DNA of 64,000 nt from Verrucomicrobia bacterium Tous-C9LFEB (GCA_002304345.1 NEUU01000008.1:62001-126000); one strand, 5' to 3'. Positions 14,307 through 30,854 are shown, counted from the stretch's first letter. Made by a program: numbers and translations. The notes: a model not told the origin generated them from the letters alone.

Positions 14307-15518
14307 TCAGAACTGGTCCGATGATGTCGGCTGTTCTTGAGTATTGTGCTCGCCGTTGCGGAACTGGGCGCGGTACTGGCCAGGGGTTTTCTGGGTGACT
14401 TGGCGAAAGAGGACGTGAAGCCTCGGGGTGTTGGGAAAGTGGCACGCTTCGGCGATGGCCTCCAGCTTCATCTCGGTATTGCGAAGCAGGGATTGGACGT
14501 GCGCGATGCGGGCACGTTGGACTTCTCCAAGAATAGATTGCCCAAGCACCTCCGCAAAGCGTCTTTGCAAGCCGCTACGTGAGATGCCCGAGGCGCGCAC
14601 AACGTCACCCACATAAATATTCTCGGCTGCGTGGGTGCGAATATAGGCCACGGCGCGTTTCACAGAGGCTTCCTCGACGAATAGAGTATCTGTGGAGCGA
14701 CGCGCCGCCACTTCGACCACGGGTAGACGCATCATCGGTGATGTCGCCGATCCACCACGCATCAACCTGAGCAGCAGACGCGCTGCTTCCACCCCGATTT
14801 GCCACGAGGGCAGTTTGACACTCGATAATGGGATGTTTTCAAAGTCGACCCAGAATTTGTCATCGCCCACGCCGAGAATGGCCAACTCGTCCGGAATCGC
14901 GCGCCCGATTTCACGGGCGGCCTGGATGAGATGCAGCGCGAACGGGTCGAGTACGGCAAAGATTCCAGTCTTGGGTGGTAAGCGTTTCACCCAGTTGCGC
15001 ATGCGGGCGATAAGTCCGGGGCCGGATTCCTTGGTGAGTGGCCCGCTTGCTCCGGTCTGAAATTGAGCTCCAGCCGCTTTGTGATTGAGTACATCCCGAA
15101 ATCCACGAAAACGTTCCTCAGAAAACCGAGCTCCGCGCTGCTCCCAAACTGCGAATGAGGTGCATCCACATTTTAACAAATGTTCCGCAGCCAACCGCCC
15201 CACCTGCTCGTCGTCTTGTGTAACGACCGGGATACGAGGGGCATTGAGCACGTTGGAAACACTGACTGACGGCACGGACAGTCGCAGCAACTGATCTTCC
15301 GTGTCACTGCTGTGAACGACTGAGATAACGCCGTCGATATGCTGGCGTCGCACGATCTCGGCGATGCTCTGGCTGGCCTTGACGAATCCGTTGCCCACTT
15401 CAATTCGACCTTGGGAGAAGGCGAAGTGCCGCGCTCCCAACACGAGATTGCGGCCATATTCCCAGTCGGGCTGGCAGCAAATGAGAATGCGCCGGAAATT
15501 ATGGGGTTTCGACAACAT
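14307..15518 (-). CDS. XylR-type hybrid transcriptional regulator, cassette copy A
   Basis: A 403-residue regulator: residues about 10-275 form a LacI/periplasmic-binding-protein-like sensor domain (RRILICCQPDWEYGRNLVLG at the start; ELAILGVGDDKFW later). Residues about 285-385 form an AraC-type double helix-turn-helix (IYVGDVVRASGISRSGLQRR ... ACHFPNTPRLHVLFR). This architecture and length match E. coli XylR, in which sugar binding to the N-domain activates transcription. It is divergent from the aldolase gene at 15596 with a 77-bp shared control region carrying an inverted repeat, so it very probably controls cassette A. Its paralogue is at 22957-24141. The start codon has no Shine-Dalgarno. 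The ligand is unknown. Confidence 0.88.
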   Translation of the reverse strand: MLSKPHNFRRILICCQPDWEYGRNLVLGARHFAFSQGRIEVGNGFVKASQSIAEIVRRQHIDGVISVVHSSDTEDQLLRLSVPSVSVSNVLNAPRIPVVTQDDEQVGRLAAEHLLKCGCTSFAVWEQRGARFSEERFRGFRDVLNHKAAGAQFQTGASGPLTKESGPGLIARMRNWVKRLPPKTGIFAVLDPFALHLIQAAREIGRAIPDELAILGVGDDKFWVDFENIPLSSVKLPSWQIGVEAARLLLRLMRGGSATSPMMRLPVVEVAARRSTDTLFVEEASVKRAVAYIRTHAAENIYVGDVVRASGISRSGLQRRFAEVLGQSILGEVQRARIAHVQSLLRNTEMKLEAIAEACHFPNTPRLHVLFRQVTQKTPGQYRAQFRNGEHNTQEQPTSSDQF

Positions 15519-15544
15519 TAGGGTTGGGCAAAAATGAAACTATA

Positions 15545-15562
15545 TTTACCGTATTTGGTAAA
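15545..15562. promoter_or_regulatory. Putative XylR/AraC operator, cassette A
   Basis: TTTACC-GTATTT-GGTAAA, a perfect 6-bp inverted repeat with a 6-bp spacer, sits midway between the divergent regulator and aldolase starts. The corresponding site in cassette B (24164-24181) keeps the right arm and spacing, and the flank GTTGGGC(A/G)AAAAT(G/T)AAA is also conserved. Conservation between otherwise diverged control regions points to the binding site of the paired regulators. Confidence 0.55.
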
Positions 15563-15595
15563 GATTTCTTTCACTTGAATAACTACTCTGGAGTT

Positions 15596-16651
15596 ATGCC
15601 TGAAAGAGTTCTTGCTCCTGACACCATCCACAAACCTTTCCACCACCACGCCACGCTTGTCTCTAAAAGAGATTGCGGGAGTTGGCCAGTGATGCTGACG
15701 CCCTATGATGAAACGCTGAAAATCCATTGGAGCTCCTTTGAGCAGTTAGTGGAATGGTATCTGGGGGCCGGCAGTCAGGGGCTCTTTGCTTCGTGCCTTT
15801 CGAGCGATTTATTCCAGCTGACTCGAGAGGAACGCCGGGAGATCATCCGTCAGACATTGGTTTTGACTCGAGGCAGGATTCCCGTGATTGCTGCCGGCGC
15901 TTTCACCGAGAATGTGTCGTCAACGTGCGCCGTTTTGAATTCCACGGAAAAGCTCGCTGACGAGGTCAATCGCATCGCCGATCTTGGCGTGCGTGCCGTA
16001 GTGCTCTTAACCAATCAATTTGCCACGCCCACCGATCCCGATTCCATGTGGTTAAAATACATGGAGGCGACACTTTCCAAAATCCGGCCAAACATCCGGC
16101 TCGGGTTGTATGAATGTCCTGTGCCGTACAAACGATTGCTGACTCCCAAACTCGTGCAATGGGCTTCCGAAACGGGGCGGTTTTATTTCATTAAGGACAC
16201 TTGCTGCGATCTCGAACAGATTCGAGCCCGGTTACAAGCGATCAAATCAGTTCCGGATTGTCGGTTACGGCTCTATAATGCGCATACTGGGACGCTGTTC
16301 GACAGTCTGTTGGCCGGAGCCCACGGGTTTAGTGGAGTTGGCTCCAATGCTATTCCGCATCTCTACGCATGGCTCTGCCGAAATGCTCAAAGGCAACCGG
16401 ATGTGGCGCGCGAGCTTCAAGTTTTTCTCATCGAAAGCACTTCCGTGGTGGACATGGATTATCCTCAATCCGTACGGCTGTACCTGAATCAACATGGTTT
16501 CAATATCTCCCATGTGACGCGATTGACCGCTCAGAATAAGCTTCAACTGAACTCGGAAACGTTGACTGAATTTCATCGGAGCGTTGTTCAGTGGGAGCGA
16601 CGCCTGAAGTTGAACTCACCTTTTGAATTCATTTCTCCAATCTCCCTATGA
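15596..16651 (+). CDS. DapA/NanA-family pyruvate-type aldolase, cassette A
   Basis: A 351-residue TIM-barrel protein of the dihydrodipicolinate synthase/N-acetylneuraminate lyase family. The Schiff-base lysine is K200 in FIKDTCCD. The catalytic tyrosine is Y172 in GLYECPVPYKR, 28 residues earlier as in E. coli DapA (Y133/K161). The usual GxxGE loop reads GSQGLFASCLSS, so the family glutamate is missing, which argues against a true DapA. The start at 15596 gives the same numbering as the cassette B paralogue; 15524 is an upstream alternative. It is the first gene of cassette A, divergent from its regulator. Inferred role: cytoplasmic aldol cleavage of a 2-keto-3-deoxy sugar acid to pyruvate. 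Lyase versus hydro-lyase cannot be told from sequence. Confidence 0.82.
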   Translation: MPERVLAPDTIHKPFHHHATLVSKRDCGSWPVMLTPYDETLKIHWSSFEQLVEWYLGAGSQGLFASCLSSDLFQLTREERREIIRQTLVLTRGRIPVIAAGAFTENVSSTCAVLNSTEKLADEVNRIADLGVRAVVLLTNQFATPTDPDSMWLKYMEATLSKIRPNIRLGLYECPVPYKRLLTPKLVQWASETGRFYFIKDTCCDLEQIRARLQAIKSVPDCRLRLYNAHTGTLFDSLLAGAHGFSGVGSNAIPHLYAWLCRNAQRQPDVARELQVFLIESTSVVDMDYPQSVRLYLNQHGFNISHVTRLTAQNKLQLNSETLTEFHRSVVQWERRLKLNSPFEFISPISL

Positions 16652-16679
16652 GCTAACAACTCCTCCACAGTATCAGCCC

Positions 16680-17402
16680 ATGCGAAAAGCAACCATCACA
16701 CCTCTCAACGAAAAAGACGGGTTCACTCTTGCAGAGGTGATTCTCGTGGTTGCGATCGTGTGCCTTACTGCCGCGTTGGCACTGCCTTCCTTTAAACGCG
16801 CCTTGGCGACGGCCCGCGATGCGAAATGCGTTTCGAATCTGCGTCAAATCGGGGCGGCGATGCGGGTGTTTGCCGCCGATAACGAGGGCAAGCTTCCCGC
16901 CAAGTCCACCGCGGCGGATCGGACCTCCTGGCAGACGCGGTTACAGCCGTACATGGGAATGAACCAAAACAGGCAACTTCGTAAATCCTTCAACTGCCCG
17001 GAGGCGGCCCTGAAACCCGATATGAACGACGGCACGGACAATCGCACAACCTACGGTATGACAGTCTACAGCACGGTCTTTGAAAACTATCTCTCCCGCG
17101 TAGCCGATTCCCCCATCCTGCTGGTAGTGGACATGCCCACAGCCAACCTCGACGATCGTGGCCCCTGGAACGACGGGCGCACCTCTTACGAAGATCGCAA
17201 GGAGATGTTCCGACACAACAACCGCATGTCGCAGAACGGAGTCTTTTCCGACGGCCACGTCGAAGCGATGAGGCCCTCGCGCGCGGGAATGTTCCTGCCC
17301 GAAGGTTCGCCGAATGCGTGGTTGCCCGCCGGTTACTCTTACCGGTTTTCCGGCTACTGGATCACACCTTCCCCCGGACAACCGACCGACAACATCCGCT
17401 GA
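16680..17402 (+). CDS. Type II secretion/pseudopilin-like protein, cassette A
   Basis: 240 residues. The N-terminus has a prepilin peptidase site (DG-FTLAEV) with Glu at mature position 5, followed by a hydrophobic helix (VILVVAIVCLTAALALP). The C-terminal half carries R-H-N-N...GVFSDGHVE, a version of the H-X-DG motif found in the many DUF1559-type pseudopilins of Verrucomicrobiota and Planctomycetes. The end SYRFSGYWITPSP..PTDNIR is shared with the cassette B copy. It lies between aldolase and sialidase-like genes with short gaps (28 and 23 nt). Its role in a sugar cassette is unclear; it may form a periplasmic or surface fibre. The start at 16680 places the peptidase site at the usual distance; an in-frame ATG at 16623 overlaps the aldolase end. 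Confidence 0.8.
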   Translation: MRKATITPLNEKDGFTLAEVILVVAIVCLTAALALPSFKRALATARDAKCVSNLRQIGAAMRVFAADNEGKLPAKSTAADRTSWQTRLQPYMGMNQNRQLRKSFNCPEAALKPDMNDGTDNRTTYGMTVYSTVFENYLSRVADSPILLVVDMPTANLDDRGPWNDGRTSYEDRKEMFRHNNRMSQNGVFSDGHVEAMRPSRAGMFLPEGSPNAWLPAGYSYRFSGYWITPSPGQPTDNIR

Positions 17403-17425
17403 TTTCCACCTTTACGTCATTTACC

Positions 17426-18790
17426 ATGATCCGATTTTTTCTTCCCCTCGTAACAGTCCTCGTCGTTTCCCTTTCATCGGGCCACACCGCGCCCGATTCG
17501 TCGAGCCGCTTCCTTCTCTCTGGAAAGACCACCGCGCAGGGCACTCCAGAAGTTGGCATGTGGGCGGCGGGTATGCCGCAATCCGGTATTGAGGGCGCGG
17601 GCTTCCCGATTCTCAAACAAGCCCGGCATGCACTCATTTTCAAAGATGCGGTGGAGGCGGGAGGCTACAATCATCACTCCCAACTCTTCTATTGCTTGGG
17701 TGTTTTTTATGCCGCCTGGAGCAATCATCCGAAGGGCGAAGACGCCGCCGGTCAGCGAGTCCTTTTTTCCCAATCGAAGGACGGAGTCAACTGGACCAAG
17801 TGGGCCGAAGCGTTTCCGCCACCGAGCGAAGTGCGTGGATGGGGAGAAGGATTCGGCTGCTACGCCGTGGCCGGTTCCTGGCATGCCTATGAGGATTCCG
17901 TCTACGCGACGGCGCGCCTGTACAATTTCGTCGGATGGGAGAATGCGGACCGTACCAGTCGGACAGCCGAGCGCGACGAGAAGCATATTTTCCAGCGGTT
18001 CGAGCATATCGGACTGGTGGCCCGCAAGGTGGGATCGGACGGAACACTCGGCCCGATCTTCGCGCTCTCCACGCGCGTCAACCGTCTGACCAATCTGGAC
18101 TTTCCCTTTGTGAAGTACGGCACGCCGACATTTCAGCCCGTCGCCGATGCCATCAATCAAAGACAGCCCAAAACCCTCACCATTCAGGGGCCGTTGCCAG
18201 AGCCGGTCGACAATGCCCGGCTGGTAGAGCCCGCCGTCTATGAAACTCCTGACAAAACCCGGGTGGCCATCATTCGCGACGACAAGTTCTCCCACCGCAA
18301 ATACGTCAGTTTCTCCACAAATCAGGGAAGCTCCTGGTCCAAGGCCTTGCCGACGAACATCCCGGATTCGCCGTCTCTCGACATCGCGTTGCGTACGCCC
18401 GGTGGCGATATTTTGCTCATCGGCAATCATTGCGCGTCGGGATTTGATAATCCCCAAGATCCCAAAACCCCCTCAAATCCGTACCACTACGACCGCGATA
18501 CACTCGATGTTGCCGTCAGCACCAACGGCTACCTCTTCACACACACCGTTGTCCTGAGGACTGGAGTGCAAGCGTGGCGCGTGCCGCGCAAGGCGGTTCG
18601 CGGTCGTGGCGGCGGGCCGCAATATCCCTCTGCTCTCATCATGGGAGATAAACTCTACGTCATGTACTCGTTCGGCAAAGAAGACATCTGGTGTTCGAGC
18701 GTGCCGTTGTCCGATGTACTCCAGCCCAGCGCCGCGACCGCCGCTCCCGCCGAAATTTCCTCACCCACCCCCACAGCAATCACCAACTGA
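17426..18790 (+). CDS. Exported sialidase-superfamily (BNR/Asp-box) protein, cassette A
   Basis: 454 residues with a signal peptide (MIRFFLPLVTVLVVSLSSG). Asp-box-like motifs SQSKDGVNW and STNQGSSW and the C-terminal block PQYPSALI.GDKLYVMYSFG are typical of six-bladed sialidase/BNR_2 propellers. A conserved core NHPKGEDAAGQR is shared with the cassette B copy. The canonical FRIP motif of GH33 was not found, so the substrate may be another 2-keto sugar acid or a different glycan. Translation of the next gene begins 10 nt downstream. Inferred location: periplasm or cell surface; inferred job: releasing the sugar that the symporter and aldolase use. Confidence 0.75.
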   Translation: MIRFFLPLVTVLVVSLSSGHTAPDSSSRFLLSGKTTAQGTPEVGMWAAGMPQSGIEGAGFPILKQARHALIFKDAVEAGGYNHHSQLFYCLGVFYAAWSNHPKGEDAAGQRVLFSQSKDGVNWTKWAEAFPPPSEVRGWGEGFGCYAVAGSWHAYEDSVYATARLYNFVGWENADRTSRTAERDEKHIFQRFEHIGLVARKVGSDGTLGPIFALSTRVNRLTNLDFPFVKYGTPTFQPVADAINQRQPKTLTIQGPLPEPVDNARLVEPAVYETPDKTRVAIIRDDKFSHRKYVSFSTNQGSSWSKALPTNIPDSPSLDIALRTPGGDILLIGNHCASGFDNPQDPKTPSNPYHYDRDTLDVAVSTNGYLFTHTVVLRTGVQAWRVPRKAVRGRGGGPQYPSALIMGDKLYVMYSFGKEDIWCSSVPLSDVLQPSAATAAPAEISSPTPTAITN

Positions 18791-18800
18791 ATACACTACC

Positions 18801-20654
18801 ATGAAACACTACACATTCTGGATTATGGCGCTTCTCGTCATGATCGGCGGCATTATAGCAACCCCGGCCGCCACTTGGGTTGGCAATGGCGATGCCAACA
18901 ATGGAGGAAATTGGTCAACCACGACTAACTGGGACGGCTCAGTTCCCGGGGCGACGGACACCGCGACACTCGGCAATGTCACCACCGGCACGCGCACCGT
19001 CGTCTATGACTCTGCGTCTTCCGGGTTTCTCACAAGCCTCCAACTGGAGCAAAGCACCGCCAGTGCCATCAATAAGCTCAGCATTCAGCGCGATTTGACT
19101 CTTTCTTCCGAGTTGGTAATCGGAGCCTCTGCCGGAAGCTCCATTGTACGGCTGGGTGGCGCAGCCTCCAAGGTGACATTACAAGTGGGAGACACCGCTT
19201 CCAGTCCCGGTATCACTTTGAACTCCGGTGGCACGTTCATCCTCGATTTTATCAGCGGAGGCGTGACCGGAAGCGATTTGAAATCCAATGTAACGATCAA
19301 CACTGGCGGTGTTTTTCAGGTGGGCTCTTCCGAGAGCGGGTCCAGCTCCAGCACGGCGCAGGCAACGGTGGTACGCTCCATGACGCTTTCCGGTGGGCAG
19401 ATGGTGCTGGATACGACCGATTACTCGGCAATTCGCCTGTCCATTCAAGGTAACTTCACCGCGACGGGAGGATCGATTTCGACCACCAGCGGCAGCGGCG
19501 GCAACCTCTATTTCGACGGGACAACTGTCTCCCTGGGCAACACCTCCATCGGTTCTGTCAATTTCACGATGCGCGGCTCCGGCAACAAAACACTCAGTAT
19601 CGACCGGGCTCTCAACCGGCTTTATCTCATCGGACGTAACAGCGCTGATCTCACCGTCAATGTGAGCGCCCCTTCGACGACTGGACTTTATTTTACGCAT
19701 GAATCGGTCGGTAAGACCGTCACGATGCAATTGACCTCCGACCTTGCCCTCGCCACCAACGGCGTGCAACCGCAGGCCACCGGAGGAGCCACAAGCGGAA
19801 CGACGACTTACGGAATCGACGCAAACGGCTTCACCCTCGATCTCACCGCTGGCCAGAGCTACGGCAAGTGGACTCCCAACAAGGGCAGCGAAACTACCGC
19901 CGCATGGGAACTCACCACCAGCGCCGCCAACGGACGCATCAAGGCCACGGCGTTTGATTTCAGCACAACCAATGTCACCACGCATGTGGGCGCTGGATTG
20001 ATTCTGGAAGCGGTGTCGGGTTCAAACGCGACAACAAAGGTGAATAATCTCTCGGGAACCGGAGTCATCGAGACGAGCTCCGTCTTTCGTTTCAATCCAA
20101 CCAGCTCGGCGTCGACATCGACTCTGCAATCGAACCGCGACATTGGTATTCTTGAAATCAAAAAGGGCACCTTGAGCATCGCCGGAACCACCGACTTTTC
20201 GGCCAAGGGTGGCATCGCCATATCCGCCGGAGCCACGTTAAACCTCGACCAACGCATGGTCAGTACGTCCCTCTTCACCTTTGGCGTCAGCGGGACGGAT
20301 AAAGGAGTGCTCACGGGTGGAAATGCCGCGGTCTCGCTGGCCGATGCCCGCATTGTCTTCGACCTTTCCGGCACCATCGTGGCGGGAACCTATGACGTAT
20401 TCGACACAATTTCCGGCATTACGGGAACACCATCGTCCGTAGCCATCAGCGGCAATCAGACACTGGAACTCACCCGCTCCGGCACCACCTGGTCCGGATC
20501 GTCTGGTGGCTTCGATTACACGTTCTCCACTGACACAGGTCTCTTTCAGATCGCGGCAGTACCCGAACCCCGCACCAAGCATGCCTTGCTCATCGGTAGC
20601 CTGCTACTGCTCGTCACCGGAGTCTGGAGACAGCATCGCCACCACCGAGCTTGA
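18801..20654 (+). CDS. PEP-CTERM surface protein with autotransporter-like repeats, cassette A
   Basis: 617 residues. A signal peptide (FWIMALLVMIGGIIATPAA) is followed by W.GNGDANNGGNWSTTTNWD, the start typical of autotransporter-associated beta-strand repeat proteins, then a long Ser/Thr/Gly-rich beta-helix-like body. The C-terminus is a PEP-CTERM signal: VPEP, a hydrophobic helix (ALLIGSLLLLVTGVW) and a basic tail (RQHRHHRA). Family knowledge: such tails are recognised by exosortase (EpsH) and the protein is released or anchored at the outer surface. No exosortase is present in this window. The paralogue at 27365 is 619 residues. Role is inferred as surface matrix or glycan capture. Confidence 0.8.
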   Translation: MKHYTFWIMALLVMIGGIIATPAATWVGNGDANNGGNWSTTTNWDGSVPGATDTATLGNVTTGTRTVVYDSASSGFLTSLQLEQSTASAINKLSIQRDLTLSSELVIGASAGSSIVRLGGAASKVTLQVGDTASSPGITLNSGGTFILDFISGGVTGSDLKSNVTINTGGVFQVGSSESGSSSSTAQATVVRSMTLSGGQMVLDTTDYSAIRLSIQGNFTATGGSISTTSGSGGNLYFDGTTVSLGNTSIGSVNFTMRGSGNKTLSIDRALNRLYLIGRNSADLTVNVSAPSTTGLYFTHESVGKTVTMQLTSDLALATNGVQPQATGGATSGTTTYGIDANGFTLDLTAGQSYGKWTPNKGSETTAAWELTTSAANGRIKATAFDFSTTNVTTHVGAGLILEAVSGSNATTKVNNLSGTGVIETSSVFRFNPTSSASTSTLQSNRDIGILEIKKGTLSIAGTTDFSAKGGIAISAGATLNLDQRMVSTSLFTFGVSGTDKGVLTGGNAAVSLADARIVFDLSGTIVAGTYDVFDTISGITGTPSSVAISGNQTLELTRSGTTWSGSSGGFDYTFSTDTGLFQIAAVPEPRTKHALLIGSLLLLVTGVWRQHRHHRA

Positions 20655-20676
20655 CCTTCTTTCAAAAGATCTTCCC

Positions 20677-22212
20677 ATGCCCGCAAGCACGATCATAGAT
20701 GCACCGAGAAGTGCGGCGTCCACTTCAAACGACCGCATTCCGCTGGCACAAAAGATTGCGTTCGCAGCAGGCATGAACACAGAGTATGTCGCGACCGGCT
20801 TGATGACAGGCATTCTGTGGATGCCCTTTTTCAATATCGGTCTGGGCATGAGTCCCGTTGTCCTGGGGGGCATCCTGATGTTTCTTCGGTTCTGGGAAGC
20901 GGTGATTGACCCGTTCATGGGAAATCTGTCCGATAATACGCGCACGCGGATTGGCCGAAGACGCCCCTATCTGTTTGTCGGGGCCGCAATCACCGCCCTG
21001 TTGTATCCGCTGTTCTGGTACATGCCGAGCAGCTTATCCGATATTGGAAAAATCGTGTACCTCTCCATCGCTGGAGTCGCCTTCTTTACCGCCTTCACGG
21101 TCTGGTCGATACCGTACTACGGAATGCAGTTGGAGCTGACGCCCAATTATGACGAGCGCACGCGGCTCACCGGCTGGATGACCTTCTTTAGCAAACTCTC
21201 ATATCTGGCCGGAGGTTGGTTGCTGTCGTCGGTCATGCTCATCGGCATGGTCGTTTCGGGCAAAACTCCCGAACACGCGTCCGGTTGGCTGGAGCAGCAG
21301 GCGCTGACGCTCCTGCAACCATTGATCGTGCTTTTCCCGGTTGGCAGCCAGTCGGAAAAACCGATCGTCGTCGGCATGCAAATTCTCTGCCCCTTCATCG
21401 CACTGGGCATTTTGCTGTTCGGACTACTGCCCGCGCTGTTCGTCCAGGAGCGTTACTATGCGACCGAAGCGAGCTTCCAGAAAAAAGAGTCCTTCTGGCA
21501 AAGTATCCAGGAGTCCATACAGTGTCGCCCGCTTTGGTCGCTCAATGCGGCGGCTTTTTTCCTGCTTATGGGTACAAGCTCCGTGGCAACACTAGGGCAG
21601 TATGTGAATTTTTACTATGCCAGCCAGGGCGATCTTGCGCTCGGCACGTGGATTGCCGGATGGAAGGGAACGCTTGTGGTATTAGTGGGCGTCAGCACGA
21701 TCCCGCTGTTCATCTGGCTGGGAGAGCGTTTCGACAAGCGAACGATTGTCTTGTACATGCTGACCTGCTGCATGCTCGGGCATTTGACGAATTATTTCCT
21801 GATGACGCCGGAGCATCCCTATTGGCAAATTCTTTCCGGAACGTTCGAATCGTGTTCGCTGTCGGCAGTGTGGATTTTCCTGCCTTCCATGAAAGCTGAC
21901 GTAGCCGACTGGGATGAATTACATACCTCGCGACGCAGGGAGGGTGCCATCAATGCTTTTCACTATTGGTTCATCAAGATGTCGCTCACCCTCTCCATGG
22001 GATTGGGTGGCCTGCTCTTGGCATGGTCTGGATTTGACAGCCGGCATTCTGTGCAGCCAGAGATCGTCACCCACCGGATGTTTCACATTTACCTGATCCT
22101 GCCGCTGCTGTTCTGGGGCGTGGCCCTGCTGGCAACGTGGCGTTACCCGATCACGCGATCCCAAGCGACGGAAACCCGCCAGCAACTCGAAGCGCGCCGG
22201 GGAAAACTCTGA
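20677..22212 (+). CDS. GPH-family sugar:cation symporter (MFS), cassette A
   Basis: 511 residues with about 12 membrane helices. The signature DPFMGNLSDNTRTRIGRRRP matches the loop 2-3 motif of glycoside-pentoside-hexuronide (MelB/XynB-like) carriers, and LTPNYDERTRLTGW and PSMKADVADWDE are further family blocks. The start at 20677 gives an N-terminus collinear with the cassette B copy (DRIP..QK.AFAAG). It lies 22 nt behind the PEP-CTERM gene. Inferred job: inner-membrane uptake of the mono- or oligosaccharide acid liberated outside. Hexuronides are known GPH substrates; the specific substrate is not predictable. Confidence 0.85.
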   Translation: MPASTIIDAPRSAASTSNDRIPLAQKIAFAAGMNTEYVATGLMTGILWMPFFNIGLGMSPVVLGGILMFLRFWEAVIDPFMGNLSDNTRTRIGRRRPYLFVGAAITALLYPLFWYMPSSLSDIGKIVYLSIAGVAFFTAFTVWSIPYYGMQLELTPNYDERTRLTGWMTFFSKLSYLAGGWLLSSVMLIGMVVSGKTPEHASGWLEQQALTLLQPLIVLFPVGSQSEKPIVVGMQILCPFIALGILLFGLLPALFVQERYYATEASFQKKESFWQSIQESIQCRPLWSLNAAAFFLLMGTSSVATLGQYVNFYYASQGDLALGTWIAGWKGTLVVLVGVSTIPLFIWLGERFDKRTIVLYMLTCCMLGHLTNYFLMTPEHPYWQILSGTFESCSLSAVWIFLPSMKADVADWDELHTSRRREGAINAFHYWFIKMSLTLSMGLGGLLLAWSGFDSRHSVQPEIVTHRMFHIYLILPLLFWGVALLATWRYPITRSQATETRQQLEARRGKL

Positions 22213-22227
22213 TCACCTATTTTCTTT

Positions 22228-22944
22228 ATGCCAAATCAACCTCTCCTACTGCGCTTTCAAATTTTGATGCTCTTCGCTTTTTCCGTCTGGGGGCTTCCAG
22301 CCCAGACCGTGACAAACCTGGCAGCCATTCCTGCCACCCGCGATCCGTGGATGGAACAGCACCAGAACTACAACGTCCTCGCAGCCAAAGGAAACATTGA
22401 CCTGCTCTTCATCGGCGACTCCATCACGCAGGGCTGGCGCGGCAATGGCACACCCGTCTGGGACAAATACTTTGCATCGAAACAGGCAGCTAACTTCGGC
22501 ATCAGCGGCGATCGCACGGAGAATCTGCTCTGGCGGCTCCAAAACGGCAATCTCAACGGCATTCGTCCCAAAGCCGTAGTGGTACTGATCGGCACCAATA
22601 ACATTTGGCGAGACAAGCCGGAACAAGTCGCCGAGGCCATCGGCCTGATCGTACAGGAAATCAAGACACGCTGCCCGGCCGGTCGTGTATTGCTTCTCGG
22701 CCTCTTTCCCCGAGGAGACGCTCCGAACACGCCCACTCGCAAAAAAATCGCCCAAGTCAACGCAATCATCTCCAACCTCCACGACGGCAAGCGAGTATTC
22801 TACCTGGACATTGGCGAAAAGTTCACGAATCCCGAAGGAGCTATCAGTAAGGACATCATGTTCGACTTTACGCACCTGACGGCGGCCGGTTACCAAGTCT
22901 GGGCCGACGCCATCGAACCGAAGCTCGATGAGTTGATGCGCTAA
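22228..22944 (+). CDS. Exported SGNH/GDSL-type esterase (PAF-acetylhydrolase-like)
   Basis: 238 residues with a signal peptide ending near WGLPAQT. All SGNH blocks are visible: GDSITQGW (nucleophile S65), NFGISGDRTENLLWR, VVLIGTNN, and the catalytic dyad D213/H216 in DFTHLTAAGY. Such secreted PAF-AH-like SGNH proteins often remove acetyl groups from sugars. Placed directly after the symporter (15 nt), it is the last gene of cassette A and has no counterpart in cassette B. Inferred role: O-deacetylation of the substrate glycan or of a released sugar acid, for example an O-acetylated sialic acid. It converges on the copy B regulator with only 12 nt between stop codons. Confidence 0.85.
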   Translation: MPNQPLLLRFQILMLFAFSVWGLPAQTVTNLAAIPATRDPWMEQHQNYNVLAAKGNIDLLFIGDSITQGWRGNGTPVWDKYFASKQAANFGISGDRTENLLWRLQNGNLNGIRPKAVVVLIGTNNIWRDKPEQVAEAIGLIVQEIKTRCPAGRVLLLGLFPRGDAPNTPTRKKIAQVNAIISNLHDGKRVFYLDIGEKFTNPEGAISKDIMFDFTHLTAAGYQVWADAIEPKLDELMR

Positions 22945-22956
22945 TTCCGACAATCC

Positions 22957-24141
22957 TCACCGCCGATGGAACACCGCTCGATATTCACCCGGCGTCTGTC
23001 CGGTGTAACGGCGGAACAAAATATGCAGGCATGGCGTACTGGGGAAATTACAGGCTGCGGAAATGTCGGTCATCTTCATGTCGGTGGTTCTTAATAACGT
23101 TTTCACCCGCTCGATTCTCCCCCGCTGAATTTCCGCCAGAATAGAACGTCCCAGGATGACTGCAAAGCGTCGCTGCAACCCACTTCGGGAAACTCCAGCG
23201 GCCCGCGCCACATCCGCAACATAGATATTCTCTCCAGCATGAGTGCGAATGAAGGCCACCGCCTTGGCTACAGCCTCGTCTTTTGTATATAGAATATCCG
23301 TCGATTGCCGTTTGGCCACTTCGGTCACGGGCAGATATCGCTGCGGTGGAGTGGAACCGTACGGTTTCTTTGACTGCATCAACTCCTCCAACAGAGTCAC
23401 CGCTTCCACTCCGATTTGCCATGCCGGCAATTTCACACTTGAGAGGGGTATACTCTCGAAGTCGGTCCAGAATTGATCGTCCCCCGCCCCCAACACCGCC
23501 AGATCTTCCGGGACATCCCGGCCCAACTCCCGGGCCGCCTGCATCAAGTGGAGCGCAAAGGGATCGAATACCGCGAAAACTCCAGTTTGGGGCGGCAGCT
23601 TCTTGAGCCATTTTTGCATCTTCACGAGCAGCCTCGCGCTCTCCTCCTTGGGTCCGCTCCCTCCAGCGATACAGGTTGCCTGCGGCATACACCGCTCCAG
23701 TTCCAAGCGAAATCCCCGAATGCGCTGCAAGGAGAAGCGTTCCCCCAAGTCTTCCCAATACGCAAAAGTCGTACACCCGCATGCAAGCAAATGCTCGGCG
23801 GCCAAACGCCCGACCGCCATGTCATCCTGCGTGACGAGGGGCAGTCGTACGGTATTGAGGATGTTGGAGACATTGACCACGGGCACGGGCAGCCTCAGCA
23901 TTTCGCTTTCCATTTTCGGTGTCGTGACGCGGGCGATGATCCCGTCGATGGATTGCTGTCTCACCAACTTTGCCAATGCGGTTCCCTTGTTATGGGTACC
24001 GGGACCAATCTGAAATCTTCCCGTGGTGAAGGCGTAATGTCTCGCCCCCAAAACCAACTCCCTTCCATATTCCCAATCAGTTTCGACCATCATCAGAATT
24101 CGGTGATGTCTCTTTTTCGTCGAAAGACTGGGCAATTTCAT
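22957..24141 (-). CDS. XylR-type hybrid transcriptional regulator, cassette copy B
   Basis: 394 residues with the same architecture as the regulator at 14307-15518: a periplasmic-binding-like sensor (HHRILMMVETDWEYGRELVLG; DLAVLGAGDDQFW) and an AraC double helix-turn-helix (IYVADVARAAGVSRSGLQRR; ACNFPSTPCLHILFRRYTGQ). The recognition helices of the two paralogues are nearly identical (SRSGLQRRFA), while the sensor domains differ more. This suggests shared or overlapping DNA sites with possibly different ligands. It is divergent from the aldolase gene at 24215, with a 73-bp control region. Confidence 0.88.
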   Translation of the reverse strand: MKLPSLSTKKRHHRILMMVETDWEYGRELVLGARHYAFTTGRFQIGPGTHNKGTALAKLVRQQSIDGIIARVTTPKMESEMLRLPVPVVNVSNILNTVRLPLVTQDDMAVGRLAAEHLLACGCTTFAYWEDLGERFSLQRIRGFRLELERCMPQATCIAGGSGPKEESARLLVKMQKWLKKLPPQTGVFAVFDPFALHLMQAARELGRDVPEDLAVLGAGDDQFWTDFESIPLSSVKLPAWQIGVEAVTLLEELMQSKKPYGSTPPQRYLPVTEVAKRQSTDILYTKDEAVAKAVAFIRTHAGENIYVADVARAAGVSRSGLQRRFAVILGRSILAEIQRGRIERVKTLLRTTDMKMTDISAACNFPSTPCLHILFRRYTGQTPGEYRAVFHRR

Positions 24142-24163
24142 GTTGGGCGAAAATTAAATATTA

Positions 24164-24181
24164 ATTAGCAGATTAGGTAAA
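24164..24181. promoter_or_regulatory. Putative XylR/AraC operator, cassette B
   Basis: ATTAGC-AGATTA-GGTAAA occupies the same place relative to the regulator start as TTTACC-GTATTT-GGTAAA in cassette A. The right arm GGTAAA and the 18-bp length are kept and the left arm is degenerate. The adjacent flank GTTGGGCGAAAATTAAA is also conserved. Confidence 0.5.
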
Positions 24182-24214
24182 TACATTTATCGGAGCCTAT
24201 GGAATACTCATCTC

Positions 24215-25279
24215 ATGCAAAACGGCGCGCCCACAAGCATTCCCGAGACAGATCGAGCCAAGAATGTCCGTCTCAACATGCCCTCCACCCATCGCCCCGG
24301 CTCCTGGCCGGTGATGATCACTCCCTTTGACTCGGGTAAACGGATCGACTGGGTTGCCTTGGATGCACTCATCGAATGGTACATTGCGGCAGGTAGCCAG
24401 GGGTTATTTGCGACCTGCCTTTCCAGCGAGTTGTTTCACCTCGACGCCGACGAGCGATCAGCGCTGGTTCGTCGTGTTTTGAGCCGCGCGTCTACGCGTC
24501 TGCCGGTGATTGCAGCCGGAGCCTTTGCGCCCAATACCACGGCGACGGACGCGACCGGCACTCCCACCCAAATTGCAGATGCCGCCCACCGATTAGCTGA
24601 TACAGGAATCGAATCGGTCATTTTTTTAACCAACCAGTTTGCGGCTCCTGACGACAATGACGCAACGCTCTTGACCAATCTGGAAGCGACCCTGGCCCGT
24701 CTCGATCCTGCGATTCCGGTCGGTCTCTACGAATGTCCTGTCCCCTATAAACGTCTACTCACGCCGGCCCTGACGGAATGGGCTGCGTGCACGGGGAGGT
24801 TCCGGTTCCTGAAGGATACCTGCTGCGATCTTTCCCAGATCAAGGCAAAGCTCTCGGCGTTGCACGGATCGCCGCTTCGCTTTTACAACGCCAACACCCC
24901 CACGCTTCTAGCCAGTCTTCAAGCTGGTGGACACGGCTTCAGCGGGATTGGAGCCAACGCCATGCCGCATCTTTACACCTGGCATTGCGAGCACTTTGCC
25001 AAAGAGCCCGGGACCGCCCGCGAGCTTCAGCAATTTCTCACCGACAGCTCCGCCGCCGTCGACACCCATTATCCACACTCCGTGAAGGCCTATCTCCATT
25101 TGAATGGCCTACCAATACAGCCGGTCTCGCGCGTGTCGCAGAATGAACTGACTCGCGCCGACAACGAGCGACTCCGGCGGTTTCACGTCGAGGTGATTGA
25201 TTGGGAAAAGCGGCTTGGATTGGCCTCACCTTTTGAGGCTCTAGCCAACGATTGCCGGTCTTTCTGCGGTATTGGATAG
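24215..25279 (+). CDS. DapA/NanA-family pyruvate-type aldolase, cassette B
   Basis: 354 residues. It carries the same catalytic pair as the cassette A enzyme: Y172 in GLYECPVPYKR and K200 in FLKDTCCDLSQIKAKL. The GSQGLFATCLSSELF loop again lacks the family glutamate. Counted by eye, 43 of 76 residues are identical to copy A over the segment from GSWPVM to PVIAAGAF. The start at 24215 is chosen because it makes the active-site numbering match copy A; an internal ATG at 24278 is possible. It is the first gene of cassette B. Inferred reaction: pyruvate-forming cleavage of a 2-keto-3-deoxy sugar acid in the cytoplasm. Confidence 0.82.
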   Translation: MQNGAPTSIPETDRAKNVRLNMPSTHRPGSWPVMITPFDSGKRIDWVALDALIEWYIAAGSQGLFATCLSSELFHLDADERSALVRRVLSRASTRLPVIAAGAFAPNTTATDATGTPTQIADAAHRLADTGIESVIFLTNQFAAPDDNDATLLTNLEATLARLDPAIPVGLYECPVPYKRLLTPALTEWAACTGRFRFLKDTCCDLSQIKAKLSALHGSPLRFYNANTPTLLASLQAGGHGFSGIGANAMPHLYTWHCEHFAKEPGTARELQQFLTDSSAAVDTHYPHSVKAYLHLNGLPIQPVSRVSQNELTRADNERLRRFHVEVIDWEKRLGLASPFEALANDCRSFCGIG

Positions 25280-25300
25280 AAATCTGCAACACCGGAAGCC

Positions 25301-26035
25301 ATGATCGCCATCATGAATATATTGCCACACACTAACCTTCGAAGTGCTTTCGCACTTATCGAAGTACTAGTCGTCACGGTCTGCATCGGCGTTCTTGTGG
25401 CCTTACTTTTTCCTGCGCTTCAGAAAGGCCGCTCCGCTGCCCGCGATGCCCGGTGTCTTGCCAATTTGCGTCAACTGGCAACCGCAAGCCTCTCCTTTGC
25501 CTCCGACAATGGCGGCAAGGTTCCCGACCGCGCGCGGACTCCAGATTGGGTTAGCTGGCAGATTCAATTGTCGCCTTATTTGAATCTGAGCCTGAGCCAG
25601 ATTCGCACCCGCATCGCCTGTCCCGCCGCAGTTCCCCAGCCCCAACCACCACCGAAGGGGGACGACAGTACTTACGGAATTTCGGTCTACATGGCCAACC
25701 ATCCCGATATCCAGCGATCTCTTTTCATCCTCGCCACACCCGTACTCCTCTTTGTGGATAAGCCTACTTCAAACACCGACAATTGGGGGCCTTGGAATGA
25801 CCGGCGCCTGGCGGACACCCTGTCCCTACGACAAGCCATGTTCCGGCATGGAAACGGAACCTGCACGCAGGGGGTCTTCACCGACGGTCACGCCGAAACC
25901 ATGAAACCTTCGCGAGCGGGAATATTTGCGCCGCTGGACGAAGGGAACGTCTGGGTGCCAAGGGGCATTTCCTACCGCTTCTCCGGATACTTTATCACCC
26001 CCTCCCCAACCATCCCTACCGATGACATCCGCTAA
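25301..26035 (+). CDS. Pseudopilin-like protein, cassette B
   Basis: 244 residues. The prepilin-type N-terminus reads SA-FALIEVLVV: Ala instead of the usual Gly at -1, with Glu5 kept. A hydrophobic helix follows (VCIGVLVALLFPAL). The C-terminal half repeats the motif of the copy A protein (RHGNG...GVFTDGHAE) and the end SYRFSGYFITPSPTIPTDDIR. It starts 21 nt after the aldolase gene with GGAAG close to the ATG, and its stop is 7 nt before the sialidase-like start. The Ala at -1 may slow or prevent peptidase cleavage. Confidence 0.78.
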   Translation: MIAIMNILPHTNLRSAFALIEVLVVTVCIGVLVALLFPALQKGRSAARDARCLANLRQLATASLSFASDNGGKVPDRARTPDWVSWQIQLSPYLNLSLSQIRTRIACPAAVPQPQPPPKGDDSTYGISVYMANHPDIQRSLFILATPVLLFVDKPTSNTDNWGPWNDRRLADTLSLRQAMFRHGNGTCTQGVFTDGHAETMKPSRAGIFAPLDEGNVWVPRGISYRFSGYFITPSPTIPTDDIR

Positions 26036-26042
26036 TCCGCCT

Positions 26043-27368
26043 ATGCCCAAAGTCCTTTTCATTTGCTCGGCTATTTTGTGTGGTGCGGCCTTGGTTGCCC
26101 ATGCCCAGCAAACCGCTCCCTCGACAGCCAATGACTTCGCTCTACGCCTTTCGGGAAATGTGACAGCCCAAGGCATCCCCGAAGTCTATATGTGGGGGGC
26201 GGGCATGCCTCGCGATGGAGTCGAGGGCGCGGGCTTCCCCATTTTGAAAAACGCCCAACACAGCGCGATTTTTCAGGAAGCGGTCGCGGCTGGCGGCTAT
26301 AACCATCACTCCCAACTCGCCTGCTACAAGGGCGTTTTCTATGCCGCCTGGAGCAATCACCCCAAAGGCGAGGATGCCGCTGGGCAGAGAATTCTCTTCG
26401 CCACTTCAAGCGATGGTGTCACCTGGCGTCCATGGACCGAGGCCTTTCCTCCGCCCGACAAGGTTGGCGCCTGGGACGATGGCTTTGGATATTATTCAGT
26501 GGCCGGTCCATGGCGGATTTACGAAAACGAAATCTATCTCACCGCGCGCCTCTACAAATTCGTGGGATGGGAAGACGCCTCAGGCAAGGATCTGGTCTAC
26601 AAGCGCGATTCCGTTCATTACTTCAAACGTTTCGAATCGGTCGGTCTCCTTGCCCGCAAAATGACCGGTGGAACTCTCGGCCCCGTGTTCGCTCTCTCCA
26701 CTCGAATGAACCGGATTAGCGATCTGGCCTATCCGTTCCTGCCGTACGGTGATCCGGCATGGCAAGCGGCCGCCAATGCCATTGGCCAGACTTTTGAAAT
26801 TCAACGGGAACCCATTCCTACCGCAGTCGATGGGGCACGAATGGTTGAGCCCACTGTCTATCAAACCTCCGCAAATATCAAAATCGCCATTGTTCGCGAC
26901 GACAAGTTCTCCCACCGCAAGTATGTCAGTTTTTCCAAAGATGACGGACGCACTTGGTCGACCGCGCTGCCGACAAACATCCCGGATTCACCCTCGCTGG
27001 ACATCAGCCTGAAAGCCCCTGGCGGTGCGATTCTGCTCATCGGAAATCACTGCGCCAGCCGCTTCGACGACGGGGCCAAGCGCCGCCATTACGGCCGGGA
27101 TACACTGGACGTCGCTATCAGTACGGATGGCTATCTCTTCGCCAAAACTTTTGCCATCCGTACGGGGGCGCATCAATGGCGGGTACCGCGAGAGGAAGTA
27201 CCCGGTCGTGGTGGTGGCCCCCAATATCCGTCAGCACTCATCGAGAAGGATCGCCTCTACGTGATGTACTCGCTTGGGAAGGAAGACATCTGGTGCACGA
27301 GCATTCCACTCGCGGATATTCTTCCCGCACCCTCTAACCCATCCATTCAACCCACATCCCTACCATGA
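26043..27368 (+). CDS. Exported sialidase-superfamily (BNR/Asp-box) protein, cassette B
   Basis: 441 residues with a signal peptide (MPKVLFICSAILCGAALVAHA). It shares long blocks with the copy A protein: GNVTAQG.PEVYMWGAGMP, FYAAWSNHPKGEDAAGQR, FSHRKYVSFS, LPTNIPDSPSLDI, LLIGNHCAS and GGGPQYPSALI. Asp-box-like elements are SSDGVTWRPW and SKDDGRTW. As in copy A, no FRIP motif was found. Its stop overlaps the ATG of the following PEP-CTERM gene (ATGA), which implies translational coupling of the two surface proteins. Confidence 0.75.
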   Translation: MPKVLFICSAILCGAALVAHAQQTAPSTANDFALRLSGNVTAQGIPEVYMWGAGMPRDGVEGAGFPILKNAQHSAIFQEAVAAGGYNHHSQLACYKGVFYAAWSNHPKGEDAAGQRILFATSSDGVTWRPWTEAFPPPDKVGAWDDGFGYYSVAGPWRIYENEIYLTARLYKFVGWEDASGKDLVYKRDSVHYFKRFESVGLLARKMTGGTLGPVFALSTRMNRISDLAYPFLPYGDPAWQAAANAIGQTFEIQREPIPTAVDGARMVEPTVYQTSANIKIAIVRDDKFSHRKYVSFSKDDGRTWSTALPTNIPDSPSLDISLKAPGGAILLIGNHCASRFDDGAKRRHYGRDTLDVAISTDGYLFAKTFAIRTGAHQWRVPREEVPGRGGGPQYPSALIEKDRLYVMYSLGKEDIWCTSIPLADILPAPSNPSIQPTSLP

Positions 27369-29224
27369 AACAAACCGTCATCATCCTCCGTGCGCTCGCA
27401 CTGGCTGCGACGCTTCCGTTTAGTACCGAAGCCCAGACCATTATTCAATGGACAGGCAATGGCGATGCCAACAACAGCGGCATCTGGTCGACCACCAGCA
27501 ACTGGGACAGCGGTACGCCCCCAGGCACCTCCGACACCGTCACCCTCGGCGACGTTTCCACCGGCACCCGCACCATCACCTATGACTCCGCCGCGTCCGG
27601 CTACCTCACCAAACTTACACTCAACCAGACCACCGCCGGCTCCGCCAATCGCCTGGCTATTCAGAGGGATCTGACGCTCTCCGGAACGCTCACACTTGGA
27701 GCCACCAGCGGCACCTCGGACGTGATTATTGGGAACACCACCGCCAAGGTAACGGTCAACTCCACCGCGGGAACCGGCGTCGTCATTAACAACGGCGGCA
27801 AACTCACCCTCGACTTCGTCACCAGCTCCAACACTGGCAGCGACCTCATGGCTCATACCGTCGTCAACAGCGGAGGCATCCTCCAGATCGGCTCCTCCGA
27901 TAGCGGAACCAGCGCTGCATCGTCGCAAGTTAACATCACCAAGAATCTAACTCTCAATGCCGGTTCTTCTCTCATACTCGATACCAACAGCCGTCCCAAT
28001 ACCATCCTCGGCGTCCGGGGAAACTTCATCGCCAATGGCGCCACGATTACGGCAAACAGCGGCACAGGTGGCCAGATTTACCTCGATAGTACTACCACCT
28101 CGCTCACCAATACCTCCATCGGTTCGATCGATTTCACGGTTCGTGGCTCCGGCTCAAAAACCTTCACGGCCGATACCTCGCTCAACCGTTTCTACCTGGT
28201 CGGACGGGATAATGCAGATCTCGAAGTCACCCTCAGCGCCCCCAGTGCTACCAGCCTCTATTTCACCCACCTGTCAGCCAACAAAACTACTACGCTCAAG
28301 CTCGCCTCTGATCTGGCCCTGGCCGCAAATGCGGTCCAACCCAAGGCCACCGGTGGCGTTTCCACCGGTACCACCACCTACGCCATTGACGCCAACGGGC
28401 ATACCCTCGATCTGACCGCCGGAGCCGAGGACGGAAAATGGACGCCTAACAAAGGCAACGAACAAACCTCCGTCTGGTCTTTGAAAAACAGCGGCACCGC
28501 CAATGCCGGAAAGATCAAGGCAAAGGCCTTCGACTTCAGCGGCACTAATGTCCAAACCCAAGTCGGAGCCGGGCTCGTGCTGGAAGCCGTCAGCGGCGCC
28601 AATGCCGCCTCCCGTGCGAACAATCTCTCTGGCACAGGCACAATCGATTCAACCTCCGTCTTCCGCTTCAATGCGACCGATCCCAGTCAGACCGGCACCC
28701 TCACCTCCAATCGCAATATCGGGGTTCTTGAAGTCGCCTCCGGCACGCTCACCATTGTCGGCGACACCGACTTCACGGCTGCGGGAGGAATCCTCATCAA
28801 CGCCGGAGCTACTCTGAACTTGGGCTCGCGCATGGCGTCTTCCAGCAGCTATACCTTCGGCCTGAATGGAGCCAATATCGGAAGGCTCGACGGTGGATCC
28901 TCCGCGACATCGCTGGCCGGAGCCAGCATCATCTTCAATCTCTCCAGTTCCATCATCAACGGAACCTATGACCCGTTTGTCAGCGAGATTACCGGAACTC
29001 CACTCTCCATTTCCATTACAGGTGCCTACACACTCAATCTCACCCAGTCCGGCAATACCTGGACCGGAACAGCCGCCGGAGGTGAGACCTTCAGTTTCTC
29101 AACGGAAACAGGATACTTTGTCGTGAGCGGAGTGGTTCCTGAACCGTCTTCCTTGTCGCTACTAACCCTCTCACTCATGGCGATCGGCCTCTTTTTCCGT
29201 TCGTCTAAATATAGAACTTCCTAA
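27365..29224 (+). CDS. PEP-CTERM surface protein with autotransporter-like repeats, cassette B
   Basis: 619 residues. It has a signal peptide (ALALAATLPFSTEAQ), then WTGNGDANNSGIWSTTSNWD, a Ser/Thr/Gly-rich beta-helix-like body, and a classic PEP-CTERM tail: VVPEPSSLSLLTLSLMAIGL followed by FFRSSKYRTS. Collinear with the copy A protein throughout and almost the same length (617 versus 619). It overlaps the sialidase-like gene by 4 nt. Sorting would need an exosortase encoded elsewhere. Function is inferred only as a surface or matrix component acting with the sialidase-like protein. Confidence 0.8.
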   Translation: MKQTVIILRALALAATLPFSTEAQTIIQWTGNGDANNSGIWSTTSNWDSGTPPGTSDTVTLGDVSTGTRTITYDSAASGYLTKLTLNQTTAGSANRLAIQRDLTLSGTLTLGATSGTSDVIIGNTTAKVTVNSTAGTGVVINNGGKLTLDFVTSSNTGSDLMAHTVVNSGGILQIGSSDSGTSAASSQVNITKNLTLNAGSSLILDTNSRPNTILGVRGNFIANGATITANSGTGGQIYLDSTTTSLTNTSIGSIDFTVRGSGSKTFTADTSLNRFYLVGRDNADLEVTLSAPSATSLYFTHLSANKTTTLKLASDLALAANAVQPKATGGVSTGTTTYAIDANGHTLDLTAGAEDGKWTPNKGNEQTSVWSLKNSGTANAGKIKAKAFDFSGTNVQTQVGAGLVLEAVSGANAASRANNLSGTGTIDSTSVFRFNATDPSQTGTLTSNRNIGVLEVASGTLTIVGDTDFTAAGGILINAGATLNLGSRMASSSSYTFGLNGANIGRLDGGSSATSLAGASIIFNLSSSIINGTYDPFVSEITGTPLSISITGAYTLNLTQSGNTWTGTAAGGETFSFSTETGYFVVSGVVPEPSSLSLLTLSLMAIGLFFRSSKYRTS

Positions 29225-29273
29225 ACAGAGAAAAAAAACGACATCATTCCTGCCAAAACAAGCCTCTCCGCGA

Positions 29274-30854
29274 ATGCCCCCCTCCATCCCCATATCGGAC
29301 CGCATCCCATTCACCCAGAAACTCGCTTTTGCCGCAGGGTCGAACACCGACTTTATCTCCACCAGCATGGTGACGGGCGTGCTGTGGATGCCCTTCTTCA
29401 ATATTGGACTCGGGATAAGTCCAGCCGTTCTGGGATTCCTCCTCATGGCCTTGCGCCTGTGGGATGCCATTATTGATCCCGGTATCGGAAGTTTTTCCGA
29501 TAACCTTCGGACCCGATGGGGAAGACGGCGACCACTGGTTTTTATTGGTGCTATCACCACGGCGTGCCTGTTTCCGTTTCTTTGGCGCTTGCCCCAAGGG
29601 GTGCTCGACAACGATTCGTGGCTCGCCCACTTGGCAAACGGAATTCCTTTCATCTCCGGCCTTGGCATCTCTTCCTATGACAATGCGGCCGCCCTTTACC
29701 TGCTGTTTTTCGGGATGACCTACTTTTTCTGCACATCACTCTGGACGATGCCTTATTACGCCCAAGAACTCGAGATGACTCCCAATTACGACGAGCGCAC
29801 CCGGCTTTCGGCATGGCGAGCCGCCTTTGGCAACCTCGCGGCACTTCTTGGGGCGTGGATCGTGTTCCTGCTGATCTTTATTGGCACGCTGGCCAGCAAT
29901 CCCACCGAGATTTTGAGGACACAATCCGGAGCGTTCCTGCAAATCCTCTCCAATATCCAGCCTTGGCTGAAATCAATAGTCGAAATTCAACCGGATCAAA
30001 AACCAATCGTTGTGGGCATGTCCATCGCCTCATGGTTGATCGCATTCATCATCCTATTCTTCGGATTACTTCCCTCTCTCTTCGTCAAGGAACGTTACTA
30101 TGAAAAAAAGGTGGTCAACCAAGCCCATGATCCTTTTTGGGCAGGCATTGGCGAATCCCTCAAATGCGTCCCGTTGCTCCAGCTCGCTGGAGTTACCTCT
30201 AGCATCACCTTTGGCATGGCATCCGTCAGCGCCCTGGGCCAATACGTTAATTTTTACTATGTGTGCAGGGGTGACCTTTTGCTCGGAGCTCAAATTGCAG
30301 GCTTGAAGGGATCCATTGCCGTGGTGACCTGCCTGCTGATGATCCCCGTATACACATGGCTCTCCGAGAAGTTCGACAAACGTTCGATACTCATATTCAT
30401 GCTCGGCCTGAGCATTGCCGGGCATCTATCTAATTTTTTTCTGATGCGTCCCGAAGCCCCCTACCTGCAAATTGTGTCGGGCGCATTGGAATCATGTGCC
30501 CTAGCCGCAGTCTGGATGTTCTTGCCATCCATGAAAGCCGACGTAGCCGATTACGACGAAATGCAAACCACGCGCCGCCGGGAAGGCGCACTCAATGCGT
30601 TTTACTCATGGACCTTCAAAATGGCCATCACCTGCGCGCTCGGCGTGGGAGGAGCTGTCCTGCAACTAACCGGATTTAATGCCAAACTCGCCACACAACC
30701 GGATCACACAACCCGAATGATGTTTCTCTATTACCTGGCAATTCCCAGTATCATCTGGGGATTGGGTCTACTGGGGCTGTGGTTCTACCCACTTAACCGG
30801 GTCCGCGCAGCGGATATTCGCCAGAAACTGGAACTACGGCGCGGCGCACTATAA
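29274..30854 (+). CDS. GPH-family sugar:cation symporter (MFS), cassette B
   Basis: 526 residues with about 12 membrane helices. It carries the same family motifs as copy A: DPGIGSFSDNLRTRWGRRRP, EMTPNYDERTRLSAW and PSMKADVADYDEMQT. It is slightly longer than copy A because of a larger periplasmic loop (about residues 108-145). It is the last recognisable gene of cassette B; no SGNH esterase follows. Predicted to import the sugar acid for the cassette B aldolase. Confidence 0.85.
   Translation: MPPSIPISDRIPFTQKLAFAAGSNTDFISTSMVTGVLWMPFFNIGLGISPAVLGFLLMALRLWDAIIDPGIGSFSDNLRTRWGRRRPLVFIGAITTACLFPFLWRLPQGVLDNDSWLAHLANGIPFISGLGISSYDNAAALYLLFFGMTYFFCTSLWTMPYYAQELEMTPNYDERTRLSAWRAAFGNLAALLGAWIVFLLIFIGTLASNPTEILRTQSGAFLQILSNIQPWLKSIVEIQPDQKPIVVGMSIASWLIAFIILFFGLLPSLFVKERYYEKKVVNQAHDPFWAGIGESLKCVPLLQLAGVTSSITFGMASVSALGQYVNFYYVCRGDLLLGAQIAGLKGSIAVVTCLLMIPVYTWLSEKFDKRSILIFMLGLSIAGHLSNFFLMRPEAPYLQIVSGALESCALAAVWMFLPSMKADVADYDEMQTTRRREGALNAFYSWTFKMAITCALGVGGAVLQLTGFNAKLATQPDHTTRMMFLYYLAIPSIIWGLGLLGLWFYPLNRVRAADIRQKLELRRGAL

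Follow-up and report, generated by a model that had tools for sequence, protein, structure and literature searches.

Six neighbouring genes of Verrucomicrobia bacterium Tous-C9LFEB, encoding a regulator, an aldolase, a pseudopilin, a sialidase-like protein, a PEP-CTERM protein and a symporter, are found twice in a row. The locus raises the question of whether the two sets arose by duplication, whether their genes belong together as one functional system and, if so, what this system acts on. The window analysed here is a stretch of 64,000 nucleotides (GCA_002304345.1, NEUU01000008.1:62001-126000), and the source genome (G000) comprises 4.28 Mb and is about 90% complete.

Two tandem units of six genes

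The features of the two units are listed in Table 1. The initial annotation had described six genes doubled with order and strand kept, and this is borne out: BLASTP pairs all six genes, not merely one or two of them, at 43-62% protein identity and with E values from 7e-65 down to 0. The start-to-start offsets given there, namely 8623 (regulator), 8619 (aldolase), 8621 (pseudopilin), 8617 (sialidase-like), 8564 (PEP-CTERM) and 8597 bp (symporter), are all exact on the sequence if the likely ATG starts are used. The duplication is also old, as had been claimed, because DNA identity between the units is only 55-64%. Unit 1 contains a seventh gene, encoding an SGNH/GDSL esterase; its counterpart is absent downstream of unit 2, where a TetR/RND efflux operon is found. 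Elsewhere in the window, a 4479-aa protein with seven LamG domains, RCC1 repeats and eight CHB_HEX_C_1/Fn3-associated domains is encoded immediately past reg1, on the strand of that gene (399-13838, minus), and a Kdp potassium uptake operon with a KdpD sensor kinase occupies positions 49355-56453.

Table 1. Features of the two units, in window positions; the starts of ald1, psp1, sia1, pep1, sym1 and sia2 are the likely ATGs, and identities between paralogues are from BLASTP
Feature	Position	Strand	Basis
reg1, XylR-type regulator (LacI-like sugar-binding domain and AraC HTH)	14307..15518	-	Pfam Peripla_BP_3 and HTH_18
operator-like element, unit 1; direct repeats TTGGGCAAAAAT / TTTGGTAAAGAT, 30 bp apart	15524..15565	+	conservation
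ald1, class I DHDPS/NanA-superfamily aldolase	15596..16651	+	Pfam DHDPS E=1.4e-16; Tyr and Schiff-base Lys invariant
psp1, pseudopilin-like	16680..17402	+	TIGR02532 above cut-off; N_methyl/DUF1559 in homologues
sia1, predicted secreted sialidase/GH143-like propeller hydrolase	17423..18790	+	Pfam BNR_2 1.5e-12 and Beta-prop_BT_1020 1.5e-10, both above cut-off
pep1, beta-strand-repeat PEP-CTERM protein	18801..20654	+	C-terminal VPEP-hydrophobic-basic motif; 57% to pep2
sym1, GPH-family sugar/cation symporter	20677..22212	+	Pfam MFS_2 3.4e-56
SGNH/GDSL esterase, predicted secreted, unit 1 only	22228..22944	+	Pfam Lipase_GDSL_2 5.9e-31
reg2, XylR-type regulator	22957..24141	-	58% to reg1 over 388 aa; best PDB match XylR 4fe7, E=2.5e-43
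operator-like element, unit 2	24143..24184	+	conservation
ald2, aldolase	24215..25279	+	52% to ald1 over 320 aa; AF2 model pLDDT 90, DHDPS/NAL fold
psp2, pseudopilin-like	25301..26035	+	43% to psp1 over 235 aa; GspG-like N-terminus
sia2, sialidase/GH143-like propeller hydrolase	26040..27368	+	62% to sia1 over 429 aa; family profile vs BT_1020 5mqr E=8.8e-31; Foldseek best match BT_1020 1.9e-15
pep2, PEP-CTERM protein	27365..29224	+	Pfam PEP-CTERM E=0.0016, just under cut-off; 57% to pep1 over 571 aa
sym2, GPH-family symporter	29274..30854	+	Pfam MFS_2 4.2e-59; 48% to sym1 over 521 aa

Maximum-likelihood trees group ald1 with ald2 (support 96/87) and sia1 with sia2 (98/94) as sister pairs, and in both cases place the homologue of the distant genome G175 outside the pair. 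This grouping favours a single old tandem duplication that occurred once the lineage had separated from that of G175. The symporter tree sets sym1 and sym2 apart from three other genomic paralogues but is unrooted, and the regulator tree, which is small and long-branched, does not resolve the sisterhood of reg1 and reg2. Across the whole genome, the aldolase gene has two copies, both in these units, plus one weak DapA-like match. The sialidase-like gene likewise has two copies, both in these units; strong pseudopilin and PEP-CTERM matches are limited to this pair, and three more symporter paralogues are found elsewhere. Theoretically, two similar cassettes might have been assembled or acquired separately, without duplication as a unit, given that neither the symporter tree nor the regulator tree proves the two copies to be sisters and that other genomes also carry several such cassettes each. 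Such a separate origin is highly improbable in view of the aldolase and propeller sister pairs, the near-constant 8.6-kb spacing, the high-similarity PEP-CTERM pair found only here and the operator common to both units (see below).

The cassette in other genomes

The initial annotation had further proposed that the genes form one functional system under selection as a unit. A search of 388 genomes of the phylum for the aldolase subfamily (E at most 1e-42) yielded 24 copies, spread over 11 genomes. Nine of these 11 genomes have a propeller match, as compared with 55 of all 388 (Fisher p about 6e-7). A propeller gene lies within 8 kb of 9 of the 24 aldolase copies, against 0.17 expected, so that aldolase and propeller adjoin far above chance. 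All six roles are present together in G175, in a different arrangement. At the 22 aldolase loci outside the window, an SSS symporter is located within 8 kb in 18 cases, a pseudopilin directly beside the aldolase in 10 and a propeller in 10; some aldolase loci are cut by contig ends.

A search with profiles and six-frame ORFs revealed the order aldolase-pseudopilin-propeller-SSS symporter, on one strand, at six loci in four genomes (two each in G081 and G022, one each in G020 and G352). All six have a divergent AraC regulator (Pfam) beside the aldolase, and a PEP-CTERM gene was recognised at none of them. The four genomes represent two families and five of the six loci come from one genus (g65); the independent lineages sharing this order are genus g65, G352 and the window. 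An AXE1-like esterase is inserted between propeller and symporter at G022:C10, and the propeller of G081:C6 was called in two pieces. The proposal that the genes form one unit is therefore upheld for the four-gene order with its divergent AraC-class regulator. It does not extend to the GPH symporter of the window, which is swapped for an SSS-type symporter in the other cassettes, nor to the PEP-CTERM gene, and pseudopilin and PEP-CTERM genes stand beside regulators throughout the source genome. Because the same order is seen in distant relatives, the core of the cassette (aldolase, pseudopilin, propeller and transporter) looks like a real nutrient-scavenging system.

Cassettes have been multiplied in other genomes as well. 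The aldolase is present in four copies each in G081, G020 and G092 and in three in G240, and locus L093 (G092) carries two propeller genes in tandem. At L037 (G240:C24:1-12842), near-identical propeller and PEP-CTERM genes lie inverted at both contig ends, which may represent an assembly artefact or an inverted duplication.

Regulators and the shared operator-like element

Both regulators combine a LacI-like periplasmic-binding domain with a C-terminal AraC HTH, which is the architecture of XylR (4fe7) over its full length; unlike XylR, they adjoin an aldolase/hydrolase operon. The AraC domains of reg1 and reg2 are 64% identical and the effector domains 56%. The regulator-aldolase gap of each unit contains a 42-bp element with two direct repeats, 30 bp apart, which is also present in the regulator-symporter gap of G175 (L036:16193-16234) and nowhere else in the source genome, even when three mismatches are allowed. 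Since the element pattern was derived from the three sites that it matches, exact matches there hold by construction, and its support comes from permutation. The gap of unit 1 aligns with that of G175 better than in any of 1000 shuffles, and all three gaps together align better than in any of 300; when the gap of unit 2 is aligned with that of G175 by itself, the score is not above that of shuffles. In the window, only the paired element is clearly rarer than chance; a single half-site is not. Promoter and terminator scans yielded no more matches than in shuffled sequence.

The retention of this operator in both units suggests cross-regulation or co-induction of the two. A common inducer, or two similar ones, fits the shared operator and the very similar regulators at least as well as two substrates do. 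The shared operators make the earlier idea that the cassette was doubled to handle two related substrates less probable.

Propeller hydrolase, aldolase and symporter

The profile of the propeller family matches residues 32-405 of BT_1020 (5mqr) along its full length, whereas its matches to sialidases are short and local (about 1e-9) and rank below. The AlphaFold model of sia2 (pLDDT 84) likewise retrieves BT_1020 first in Foldseek, and Pfam PF24067 (Beta-prop_BT_1020) is above cut-off for sia1. A GH33-type sialidase would be expected to have its closest whole-domain similarity to sialidases, but BT_1020 ranks first in both comparisons. The N-terminal domain of BT_1020 is the founder of the ulosonic-acid hydrolase family GH143 and releases Dha from rhamnogalacturonan II. 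In the cassettes, no further enzymes of the RG-II type were recognised. In contrast to BT_1020, to which they are 18% identical in the model alignment, the window propellers are stand-alone proteins encoded in an operon without Sus genes. They have also retained a Glu and an Arg of the sialidase type: Glu277 and Arg293 align with the Glu and Arg of an Akkermansia sialidase and have no counterpart at the aligned positions of BT_1020. Arg293 and Tyr403 are invariant across the family, and NHH occupies the position of the sialidases' first Arg motif. Because Glu277 and Arg293 match the sialidase and are absent in BT_1020, the family may occupy a position between sialidases and GH143, and its catalytic machinery need not be that of GH143.

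The aldolases belong to the DHDPS/NAL superfamily (Pfam DHDPS), as TIM barrels with a Schiff-base Lys and a catalytic Tyr; Tyr172 and Lys200 do not vary among 20 homologues, and most members share the signature CLSSE, YECP and KDTCCD. Foldseek recovers the DHDPS/NAL fold for the ald2 model through generic matches that give no pointer to the substrate, with about 20% identity to every solved DHDPS/NAL structure. All scores against the NCBIfam equivalogs are far below every cut-off, those for NanA being 15.9-21 bits against cut-offs of 281-382, and the scores with the 2-keto-3-deoxy-gluconate (KDG) and 2-keto-3-deoxy-arabinonate enzymes of the superfamily are weak. For these reasons homology does not fix the reaction, and by sequence the aldolases are a DHDPS/NanA subfamily distinct from NanA, without an assigned reaction.

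The symporters of the window are of the GPH family, with Pfam MFS_2 above cut-off and TIGR00792 matched over its full length, below its strict cut-off. GPH carriers are known mainly as transporters of glycosides, pentosides and hexuronides, and the use of such a carrier in place of a SiaT-like one speaks against an ulosonic acid as the cargo.

Candidate substrates

We hold, with moderate confidence, that the two units are copies of one catabolic operon for scavenging a 2-keto-3-deoxy ulosonic acid. The propeller hydrolase, if secreted as predicted, would free a terminal ulosonic acid of this kind (Kdo-, Dha- or Kdn-like) from a polysaccharide, the GPH symporter would take it up, and the DHDPS/NanA-type aldolase would cleave it to yield pyruvate and an aldehyde, with Lys200 forming the Schiff base. 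The divergent XylR-type regulator would sense the sugar and act at the direct-repeat pair in the regulator-aldolase gap. The pseudopilin, as a core partner, and the PEP-CTERM protein may accompany the hydrolase as exported or surface proteins, as at many other loci of the source genome.

Partner genes of the relatives point to ulosonic acids. One SSS symporter, that of G175, was compared with the PDB, and its nearest solved relative is 5nv9 (7.9e-71; next best 5e-39), the sialic acid symporter SiaT of Proteus mirabilis (PMC5931594). Sialate O-acetylesterase-family (SASA) genes are found near the G175, G240 and G020 loci, and a GlcNAc 2-epimerase gene is located two genes from a G092 aldolase. 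A NagB-PIG-L/LmbE cluster is found near the G175, G050 and G021 loci, with a ROK-like gene too except in G021; it is unlinked in the source genome. Such clusters, composed of a NagB-PIG-L fusion and an LmbE deacetylase, are at L101:5602-9789, L036:4125-8295, L094:12305-16494 and L041:11924-14818, with a ROK-like protein between the two in all except L041.

These partner genes are also what one would expect of a true Neu5Ac operon, in which an ordinary exo-sialidase and NanA feed ManNAc/GlcNAc metabolism, and the sialidase-like Glu277 and Arg293 would agree with it. NanA has been reported from Verrucomicrobia (PMC2693436). The logic of Nan operons (NanA, NanE, NanK, SiaT and sialidase) is indeed the same, i.e. 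an exo-hydrolase, a symporter and a pyruvate aldolase, and a SiaT-like symporter and SASA genes occur near the relatives of the window cassette. However, the window aldolase is of another subfamily with a trivial NanA equivalog score, the propeller is much nearer to BT_1020 than to sialidases, and the cassette has an XylR-type regulator and pseudopilin and PEP-CTERM genes. Moreover, neither AGE (PF07221) nor NanE (PF04131) was found in the source genome at its completeness of about 90%, although control genomes gave matches, which leaves no known route from Neu5Ac to GlcNAc there. Neu5Ac itself is therefore an unlikely substrate, unless the gene lies in the tenth of the genome that is missing or a different enzyme does the work, and we regard a plain sialic acid operon as quite unlikely. 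A uronate or aldonate route is unlikely too, if slightly less so. Here the aldolase would act on intermediates of the 2-keto-3-deoxy-gluconate/arabinonate type, as enzymes of its superfamily do (with the weak scores mentioned), and the propeller would attack a uronic-acid polymer as a lyase or glycosidase. Pentosides and hexuronides are typical cargo of GPH carriers, the best solved relative of the regulator is a xylose regulator, and a heparinase-like gene follows the cassette in G081. Yet the nearest relatives of the propeller, BT_1020/GH143 and the sialidases, act on ulosonic acids, the G175 symporter is SiaT-like, and neither a KDG kinase nor a uronate isomerase was recognised in the cassettes.

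Pseudopilins and PEP-CTERM proteins

The prepilin N-terminal cleavage/methylation motif is recognised by TIGR02532 above cut-off in psp1, GspG-like matches were obtained for both pseudopilins, and the PEP-hydrophobic-basic C-terminal sorting signal can be read in the translations of both pep1 and pep2. In the source genome there are 64 pseudopilin tblastn matches, and 42 of the 50 pseudopilin loci examined have a regulator or PEP-CTERM gene at most two genes away. Among 132 control genes in 20 regions away from pseudopilins, one regulator and three PEP-CTERM genes were counted, a contrast that the choice of regions overstates. The approximately 64 pseudopilin genes (for example, L097-L149) are mostly located beside LacI, AraC or GntR regulators, PEP-CTERM genes and putative glycan enzymes. 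Because both kinds of gene adjoin regulators throughout the source genome, their presence is a genome-wide habit and not peculiar to the cassette. The pseudopilin is nonetheless a recurrent member of the aldolase cassette.

A similar number of pseudopilin homologues, 67, was reported in Verruconatronum alginivorum, where pseudopilins are induced by alginate and are encoded in, or co-induced with, polysaccharide clusters (PMC13274419). Those clusters contain alginate lyases (PMC13274419), whereas the window combines an ulosonate-type hydrolase with an aldolase, tandem-duplicated and accompanied by PEP-CTERM proteins. We found no paper joining a pseudopilin, a PEP-CTERM protein and this aldolase. 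It is conceivable, though doubtful, that the pseudopilin is a dedicated, operon-specific part that presents or exports its partner hydrolase, in a role like that of SusD-type proteins in Bacteroides loci, within a phylum-wide ulosonic-acid scavenging system that would unite a propeller between sialidases and GH143 with a new pyruvate-aldolase subfamily.

Conclusions

The reading that fits best is that of an ulosonic-acid scavenging operon present in duplicate, which would make it a variant of the glycan-utilisation operons already known. The cassette pairs a little-studied family of putative ulosonic-acid hydrolases with an aldolase subfamily, and each helps to define the other. The fixed place of the pseudopilin between aldolase and hydrolase offers a handle on why these genomes have more than 60 pseudopilins. 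If the pairing holds, it would provide a route for the breakdown of acidic keto-sugars from polysaccharides of plants, algae or bacteria in a phylum of which few members have been cultured.
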